A DNA stretch of 64,000 nucleotides, taken from assembly GCF_000426185.1 (NCBI RefSeq), contig NZ_AUEW01000008.1, positions 62,001 to 126,000 of the forward strand, given 5' to 3'. Within the stretch, counting starts at the first letter, position 1. Every line of letters begins with the position of its first letter. This document shows, one piece after another, positions 38,026-38,850 of the stretch. The notes below the pieces were generated by a model. That model saw nothing but the letters and a program-made list of their open reading frames with translations, made no database searches and was not told where the DNA came from. The DNA comes from Cellulomonas sp. URHD0024 (GTDB lineage: Bacteria; Actinomycetota; Actinomycetes; Actinomycetales; Cellulomonadaceae). Made by a program: the position numbers and the translations under genes.

Positions 38026-38409
38026 TCAGGCGAGGGCCTTGGCCTTCAGCGCCTCGAACTCGGCCTGCGAGATCGTGCCCGAGTCGAGAAGCGCCTTGGC
38101 TTCGGTGATGTGGTCTGCCGGAGACTTCCCGGACCCTGCGACTGTCCTGATGTACGAGTCCGTGTTGGCCTGCGCCGCCTGGACCGCCTTCAGCTGGCGC
38201 TCCGCCATCCCATTGCCCCGGGCGATGATGTAGATCAGCGCGACGAGGAACGGGATGAAGATCAGGCCGATGATCCAGACCGCCTTCCACCACCCGCTGA
38301 GGGCGTGGTCGCGGAAGAGGTCACCGATGATCTGGAACAGGATCATCAGGTAGACGACGAACAGGAACCACCAGATCAGCAGCCAGAACCACTGTGAAAA
38401 GTTGCTCAT
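38026..38409 (-). CDS. PLDc_N/SHOCT membrane protein
   Basis: 127 aa. Two N-terminal transmembrane helices (residues 5-28 and about 40-62) with WWKAVWIIGLIFIPFLVALIY match the PLDc_N membrane anchor; the C-terminus ends with a SHOCT-type short helical motif (ITEAKALLDSGTISQAEFEALKAKAL). Proteins of this design are widespread in Actinobacteria and poorly understood; SHOCT is often an oligomerisation motif. Upstream, the region 38410-38533 is more AT-rich and may hold its promoter. Confidence 0.85.
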   Translation of the reverse strand: MSNFSQWFWLLIWWFLFVVYLMILFQIIGDLFRDHALSGWWKAVWIIGLIFIPFLVALIYIIARGNGMAERQLKAVQAAQANTDSYIRTVAGSGKSPADHITEAKALLDSGTISQAEFEALKAKALA

Positions 38410-38533
38410 GCGACCCTCTCTTCACCTGGGCCTGCTCTGAACGGCCGACCCACTGCGCTGAGGCTAAACCACAAAGCACTCAATCTGTACAGGTCCCCCC
38501 CAAAGGGTCATCCGATGTTTGCTCCGGACGCGA

Positions 38534-38567
38534 CAAGACCCCCGGTCAACGGTGACCGGGGGTCTTG
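38534..38567 (-). terminator. Terminator of the riboswitch-controlled ORF, 15-bp stem
   Basis: CAAGACCCCCGGTCA (38534-38548) pairs perfectly with TGACCGGGGGTCTTG (38553-38567) around a 4-nt loop. It lies 22 bp downstream of the 51-codon ORF on the minus strand. There is no long T-run, as is usual in high-GC actinobacteria. Confidence 0.8.
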
Positions 38568-38589
38568 ACGACTGCGAGCGGGAAGGCGC

Positions 38590-38745
38590 TCAGGCAGCGG
38601 CGTGATCGCGCTGCGCTGGGATCAGCTCGATCGCCTTGCCACGCGCCGCGAGTCCTGCCCACGCCTGGAGGCGGGTGACGGGGAAGACGTTGGTGACGGG
38701 GATCGATGCCTCGGACGGGTCAACTGAGTACCCACGCTGGTCCAT
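38590..38745 (-). CDS. Short ORF (51 aa) downstream of a c-di-GMP riboswitch
   Basis: Reading the minus strand from ATG 38745 gives a 51-codon frame ending in TGA at 38590. It begins MDQRGYSVDPSEASIPVTN and ends IPAQRDHAAA. AGGA lies seven bases before the ATG. There is no signal peptide or membrane helix; it is mildly amphipathic with one Trp. I recognise no family. Support comes from context: a cyclic-di-GMP-I riboswitch directly upstream, a ribosome site at the right spacing and a strong hairpin 22 bp after the stop. The 3' flank of the riboswitch contains the AGGA in a small possible hairpin (CAGU-CAGG-ACUG), so translation may be switched. Confidence 0.65.
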   Translation of the reverse strand: MDQRGYSVDPSEASIPVTNVFPVTRLQAWAGLAARGKAIELIPAQRDHAAA

Positions 38746-38759
38746 GTTGCAGTCCTGAC

Positions 38760-38832
38760 TGTTCGGTAGCCCGGCTGACCGTGTAGGTCCCGTGGCTTTG
38801 CGTCCCCTCCTTGCAGAGGGTTTGCCGTTTCG
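38760..38832 (-). promoter_or_regulatory. Cyclic-di-GMP-I (GEMM-I) riboswitch
   Basis: The minus-strand RNA reads, in order, CGAAACGGCAAACC, a short stem capped by a GCAA GNRA loop (CUCU-GCAA-GGAG), then GGGACGCAAAGCCACGGG, a short second stem (GACC..GGUC) and AGCCGGGCUACCGAAC. These are the conserved P2 tetraloop, ACGCAAAGCC core and P3 receptor/terminal CUACCG of the GEMM-I class, compared with the well-known Vibrio aptamer. P1 is weak, which is common. It precedes the 51-aa ORF by 14 nt and has a candidate -10 (TAATGT, 38845-38850) just upstream. Confidence 0.88.
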
Positions 38833-38844
38833 CTGACAAGTCCG

Positions 38845-38850
38845 ACATTA
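38845..38850 (-). promoter_or_regulatory. Candidate -10 element of the riboswitch transcript
   Basis: TAATGT on the minus strand would place the RNA start at about 38837, a few bases before the conserved riboswitch core. No convincing -35 is visible. Confidence 0.4.

Follow-up and report, generated by a model that had tools for sequence, protein, structure and literature searches.

In an analysis based on sequence comparison, we find that a 51-codon reading frame located behind a cyclic-di-GMP-I (GEMM-I) aptamer in Cellulomonas is a real gene and that selection keeps its protein. A first-pass annotation of this DNA had inferred that a tiny protein is under c-di-GMP control in an actinobacterium, and the comparison supports this main inference. 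What is new is the conservation and coding evidence, the subclass of the riboswitch and its connection with bldC, with whiG and with a further FliA/WhiG-type sigma gene. The presence of the aptamer 5' of the small gene as well as 5' of developmental regulators hints at an undescribed control circuit.

The locus lies in the window, i.e. the whole 64-kb stretch of a Cellulomonas genome analysed here; the genus is given by the named relatives, and the host is, as annotated, an actinobacterium. On the minus strand from 38850 to 38531, reading of the sequence, the ORF and the inverted repeat recovered every element that had been named, in the order -10-like TAATGT, aptamer, AGGA, 51-codon frame and hairpin:

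38845..38850, minus strand: -10-like element TAATGT, from sequence reading
38835..38840, minus strand: possible 5' arm (CUUGUC) of a P1 extension, which can pair with the ribosome-site region
38762..38836, minus strand: c-di-GMP-I (GEMM-I) aptamer (RF01051 67.7 bits; RF03167 60.4 bits; canonical core A)
38753..38756, minus strand: AGGA ribosome-binding site, from sequence, 7 nt 5' of the ATG
38750..38761, minus strand: small candidate hairpin CAGU-CAGG-ACUG enclosing the ribosome site, from sequence, with modest support across relatives
38590..38745, minus strand: 51-codon gene (MDQRGYSVDPSEASIPVTNVFPVTRLQAWAGLAARGKAIELIPAQRDHAAA), from the ORF, relatives and selection
38531..38570, minus strand: terminator-like hairpin with a perfect 15-bp core and no T run, from the inverted-repeat search

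Transcription would be expected to start near 38839. A loose -10-like pattern is present 17-19 nt 5' of aptamer P1 at 57 of 71 class A loci, i.e. the relatives of the window's locus type with aptamer and small gene (a count made without a chance control), and at a nearly fixed distance also at 22 of 25 bldC-type loci; a scan for sigma-70 consensus promoters returned 0 promoters at the locus. At the other end, the annotated perfect 15-bp hairpin is the core of an 18-nt inverted repeat of 94 percent identity (38531-38548/38553-38570). The terminator scan does not list this hairpin, and a T run is absent. Among the relatives, a stem of at least 9 bp, G-U pairs excluded, is located in the 110 nt after the stop codon in 35/71 cases, compared with 2/71 in a control of one mononucleotide shuffle per relative.

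The next sense gene lies ~180 nt beyond the small gene, with the hairpin between them; it encodes a SHOCT-domain protein with apparent membrane segments (38026-38409, minus strand). The frame had been called isolated. This description fits in that the hairpin parts the gene from its sense neighbour, but it does not fit the regulatory setting, in which the frame shares its type of riboswitch with bldC and, in certain species, with whiG or a different sigma gene of the FliA/WhiG type. Downstream, an antisense LPG_synthase_TM neighbour is present in 70/77 small-gene genomes (76 of the genus plus G088; stretches of unequal length), and the locus is therefore largely syntenic.

To assign the aptamer to a class, we compared it with both Rfam models of c-di-GMP-I riboswitches. 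A covariance-model search of the genome with RF01051, the model that had been proposed for a check, gave 67.7 bits against a cut-off of 35 (E 6.7e-13 over the whole genome), and direct reading detected the GCAA tetraloop, which is of the GNRA type, and the ACGCAAAGCC core, in agreement with the annotated GEMM-I aptamer. By contrast, cmscan at gathering thresholds over the 64 kb gave one RNA match, to RF03167 (c-di-GMP-I-GGC; 60.4 bits, cut-off 59); the two models share one Rfam clan, and clan competition reports the better-scoring model only, here RF03167. The RF03167 consensus reads ACGCGAAGC where the window reads ACGCAAAGC, i.e. in the ACGCxAAGC core the model has G and the window has the canonical A. 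The same base is A in 100/100 distinct aptamers gathered by a pattern permitting A or G; the G and C of the core were fixed by that pattern, and across relatives only the core A is informative. We take this base to be A47 in crystal numbering and the canonical core set to be G20, A47 and C92, and all three are present in the window aptamer.

Because this core base is the canonical A, the aptamer should bind c-di-GMP in the ordinary way, and c-di-GMP is the ligand that we infer. The window's genome encodes six GGDEF domains, and thus c-di-GMP is probably made. That the aptamer is instead the GGC variant, sensing another ligand, is very improbable: it resembles RF03167 in overall sequence, slightly exceeds its cut-off and is assigned to it by clan competition, but we rejected membership on the core base, the consensus G being absent from the window and from all gathered aptamers, and the other two copies in the genome score 56.9 and 55.5 bits, below the RF03167 cut-off, while all three exceed that of RF01051. 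The aptamer thus has the sequence, fold, core bases and 5' leader position of RF01051 riboswitches, and differs from them in that its target is an unnamed small protein. Weak matches to Hammerhead_1, mir-2235 and sbcD in the region scored under the respective cut-offs and were disregarded.

When the 51-residue product was used as query against 148 related genomes, among them that of the window, 45 matched, i.e. 44 of the genus and G108, whose weak match (E 5.2e-4) was taken as chance. The annotation had asked whether the product always follows the aptamer, and the aptamer is present at 30/30 loci retrieved by protein similarity, the window being one of the 30. Conversely, RF01051 was detected in 91/148 genomes (79/81 within the genus and 12/67 outside it), and downstream of 100 distinct aptamer places there are 71 small genes, 25 bldC genes and 4 other genes, with no broken small gene among these 100 places. 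Taking all retrieved loci and reading each protein, the pair of aptamer and small gene is present in 76/81 genus genomes. The five without it are G049 (completeness 100), which has neither an aptamer nor a small-protein match; G053, which is 61 percent complete and has no aptamer match; G012 and G056, which each have one aptamer match, 5' of bldC; and G064, for which 1/3 aptamers was retrieved. Because the complete G049 lacks both parts, the module can be lost. In an order-wide scan, 17 of 396 genomes matched, 15 of them from the genus and two marginal (E 5.3e-4 and 9.7e-4) and taken as chance. Outside the genus, a 49-residue relative lies behind the aptamer in G088, a genome of the same family, and G085 has a 62-residue frame ending FVPAQIR.

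Sequence change in the frame is mostly synonymous. Neither of the two outcomes that the annotation had named as refuting, a missing RF01051 match or loss of the frame beside a retained aptamer, was seen. The 134 close pairs compared, which are mutually non-independent, give a pN/pS of 0.27, and an identical protein is encoded in five genomes with 3-9 synonymous differences per pair. Moreover, R25, W29, A33 and P43 are invariant in an 84-row alignment, and M1, Q3, R4, G5, A34 and Q45 are each present in at least 90 percent of the 84 proteins. The product had been called unrecognised, and indeed neither Pfam nor NCBIfam gave a match at E<=1; among 85 database relatives, many are nameless and the names shown are all 'hypothetical' or 'uncharacterized' protein.

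These data also bear on whether the product could be unimportant and the frame serve as a leader or for translation coupling. The frame is short and immediately follows a riboswitch, its stop codon in G006 and G011 is 5 nt 5' of the ATG of a sigma gene (or overlaps a GTG start), and a sense SHOCT-domain gene lies downstream at 32/85 small-gene loci (stretches of unequal length). However, the distance to the next gene and the intervening hairpin in the window, the strong selection against amino-acid changes and the four invariant residues all argue against this, and we regard it as improbable.

The window's genome has three aptamer targets, i.e. the window gene, a paralogue (45 percent) and bldC. 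The product of this bldC scores 100.9 bits with the HTH_BldC model (cut-off 77). At G000:C1:896727-896801 (L003/L006), the aptamer is directly 5' of bldC. Aptamer plus bldC was seen in 53/81 genus genomes, second aptamers having been sampled in part, and also in G081, G085 and G088 from other genera of the family. In G006 and G011 (L100, L101), one apparent operon comprises the aptamer, a small gene of 48 residues and an additional sigma gene of the FliA/WhiG type; a 277-residue piece of this sigma factor scores 169.2 bits with TIGR02479, below the cut-off of 189.6. Finally, whiG itself is behind the aptamer in G058 and G061 (L214, L226). The start of the G058 WhiG (MAQHGS) resembles the first residues of the small protein, which we read as the aptamer plus the first few codons having moved 5' of whiG; the likeness is no proof of domain fusion. 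With this WhiG as query, a match at E<=1e-20 is present in 81/81 genus genomes; the best match is only a distant paralogue in G007, G013, G049 and G053, and a fragment in G056. In the window's genome, flagellin genes adjoin a second FliA-like sigma gene.

The aptamer also precedes genes of other kinds. One copy in G088 is 5' of a gene for an EAL protein, and another in the same genome (L205) is 5' of a 30-residue frame, MSSTLPVRSGSTPLCHDAARVPLGLGLPAS. At L199, L201 and L124 (G013, G077, G078) and at L216 (G061), the aptamer is 5' of genes for apparently secreted proteins, as judged from the protein starts. A protein encoded near the aptamer in two families matches DUF7793 at L229 (G058), and the one at L219 (G131) is alike by eye.

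The small proteins have 38-63 residues with a loose N-terminal arm that in most cases starts with MDQRG, a central helix RxxAWAxLAAR and a tail VPxQR...AA. AlphaFold2, run on the 84-row alignment, predicted helices at 23-36 and, shorter, at 43-49, and no compact fold (mean pLDDT 67, pTM 0.31, i.e. low confidence). By sequence reading only, a signal peptide or membrane segment is not evident. A short, mostly unfolded one-helix peptide of this predicted kind would be less suited to act as an enzyme than as an adaptor or competitor.

The proteins end in [VIL]PxQ, mostly VPAQR, followed by a few residues and then mostly AA; those preceding the sigma gene in G006 and G011 have a degenerate tail, LPTPNRGA. 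Similar motifs are present in two regulators. BldC ends in VPTQR, in VPQQR or in VPQQ without R, some tails lacking the R being VPQQA/V and VPHQM. In the N-terminal extension of WhiG, [VI]Px[QP]R is present at one site in 21/22 read loci, 10 of them with the strict form [VI]PxQR; the anchor read 22 of the 30 retrieved loci. The WhiG of the window's genome (L189) has IPQPR, not IPQQR, at the first site and VPTQR at a second site, where L190 also has the strict VPTQR. Among the 43 gene-like frames of the window (15988 residues), [VIL]P.QR is absent. In profile comparisons with hhalign, the small protein aligned with BldC (probability 1.4 percent, E 0.037) and with the WhiG N-terminus (2.8 percent, E 0.016) over an 11-column motif only, and homology to either is unsupported beyond these 11 columns. 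VPxQR may thus be a lead to a shared partner rather than a mark of homology, and it may also be a coincidence.

The C-terminal -AA is present in 45/61 distinct small proteins compared with 2/43 window frames (Fisher p 2e-13, a value that is overstated as orthologues are not independent), and 16/61 distinct small proteins lack it. The tmRNA tag ends in ALAA at 22/22 genus loci examined.

Alternatively, the small protein could act in an unrelated process at the envelope, in stress or at the cell surface, sharing only the c-di-GMP input with bldC, in which case VPxQR would be a chance likeness. This would agree with the limited extent of the motif (11 columns), with the SHOCT-domain and LPG_synthase_TM neighbours and with the apparently secreted proteins encoded behind the aptamer elsewhere. 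The order of aptamer, small gene and FliA/WhiG-type sigma gene in two genomes speaks against it, as does the lack of an evident signal peptide or membrane segment, and we consider it rather unlikely.

The distance from aptamer to start codon is 14-20 nt at class A loci, a very short leader compared with those of RF01051 riboswitches, and 17-22 nt at bldC loci; an SD-like site (loose pattern) is present at 96/96 loci, including 71/71 of class A. Because a terminator would hardly fit into this spacing, control should be translational. The region of the ribosome site has two rival candidate pairings: it could pair with the RNA 5' end in a P1 extension, or it could form a small SD hairpin. The P1 extension is imperfect in the window's genome, and the full 6-bp CUUGUC/GACAGG is present in a number of relatives. 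In 56 class A leaders it has a mean score of 14.8 versus 13.7 for permuted partners, and 1/300 permutations is as good; in 23 bldC leaders the values are 14.3 and 14.7, with 232/300 as good, i.e. no support. The SD hairpin has a mean score of 7.5 versus 6.9 in 50 class A spacers, with 8/1000 permuted 3' arms as good, and of 7.2 versus 6.9 in 15 bldC spacers, with 21/1000 as good. The suggestion in the annotation that the AGGA sits in a small hairpin is thus upheld to the extent that the native pairing beats most permuted arms; the gain over them is small and lends it modest support.

To determine how formation of the aptamer might affect the ribosome site, we calculated the accessibility of the SD with ViennaRNA at 30 C and an assumed 5' end. 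When the P1 core was forced, mean accessibility went from 0.45 to 0.36 over 63 class A leaders, of which 37 fell and 11 rose, and from 0.42 to 0.28 over 24 bldC leaders, of which 18 fell and 3 rose. In predicted free folds, the first codons (GGACC) pair with aptamer P3; these codons vary in other members. The accessibility results lean to an OFF switch, and as evidence on polarity they are weak. An ON switch, in which c-di-GMP raises synthesis of the small protein, is a possibility that we consider less likely: 11/63 class A leaders gain accessibility under forced P1, and a published pair of highly homologous cyclic-dinucleotide riboswitches is reported to comprise one ON and one OFF switch (PMC9262584), but the falls in 37/63 class A and 18/24 bldC leaders point the other way.

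Altogether, we give slightly better than even credence to a translational c-di-GMP-I riboswitch, probably OFF, that controls a short helix-plus-tail regulator in the BldC/WhiG circuit acting by motif docking; promoter, polarity, partner and turnover are the parts that we infer. A housekeeping-type promoter would give a transcript of roughly 300 nt, probably with a single gene, and the leader would consist of a canonical c-di-GMP-I aptamer, with a switch that includes the ribosome site. When bound, c-di-GMP would stabilise P1, and the P1 extension would bring the ribosome-site region into a pairing with the RNA 5' end, resulting in less translation. When c-di-GMP drops, the 38-63-residue protein would be made. 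Most likely it would be a regulatory adaptor with a short lifetime and would belong to the c-di-GMP-controlled circuit that also includes BldC and WhiG/FliA-type sigma factors. It would dock through the VPxQR tail, which is alike to the BldC C-terminus and the WhiG N-terminal-extension motif, and the terminal -AA could serve as an ssrA-like degradation signal.

In the sources consulted, the c-di-GMP controls described in Actinobacteria act through proteins. In Streptomyces, BldD, a c-di-GMP effector, represses bldC and whiG (PMC4255298), and both BldD and WhiG are acted on by c-di-GMP (PMC9530166). The BldD system shares with the locus described here a c-di-GMP input to bldC and whiG (PMC4255298, PMC9530166); BldD is a DNA-binding protein, whereas here the element is an RNA leader. 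If the riboswitch is OFF, RNA would therefore impose the same sign as BldD repression of bldC and whiG. Similarly, the actinobacterial RsiG-(c-di-GMP)-WhiG anti-sigma switch brings together WhiG, its partner protein and c-di-GMP, with the RsiG motif E(X)3S(X)2R(X)3Q(X)3D (PMC8325347). By contrast, c-di-GMP would here act through RNA, and reading of the 51 residues showed that this motif is absent from the small protein. In common with the BldC family (PMC5859096), the locus has the aptamer, and the small protein ends in a VPxQR-like tail. Unlike BldC, the small protein lacks a MerR-like winged helix-turn-helix, as judged from Pfam, NCBIfam, the hhalign probability of 1.4 percent and the low-confidence model, and has no profile similarity to it past the tail. 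Among the literature matches listed, the titles and beginnings of abstracts contain no c-di-GMP riboswitch linked to bldC, whiG or the small protein.

A bolder version, which we consider speculative and unlikely to hold in full, is that Cellulomonas shifted c-di-GMP control of Bld/Whi from protein sensors to RNA, and that the small protein, via VPxQR, competes with BldC and WhiG for a common partner and is quickly cleared because of its AA end. If true, BldC and the small protein would have their levels set by one type of riboswitch, which in some species would do the same for WhiG or a different sigma factor of the FliA/WhiG type, and VPxQR would be an undescribed docking motif connecting a sigma factor with a regulator of the BldC type.

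The locus adds a conserved family of uncharacterised small proteins, for which the second-messenger riboswitch is the clearest handle. Moreover, it ties a c-di-GMP-sensing RNA to bldC and whiG, genes for which the actinobacterial c-di-GMP control described in the sources consulted is exerted by the proteins BldD and RsiG. Finally, it opens the use of Bld/Whi regulators in flagellated Cellulomonas to direct testing.
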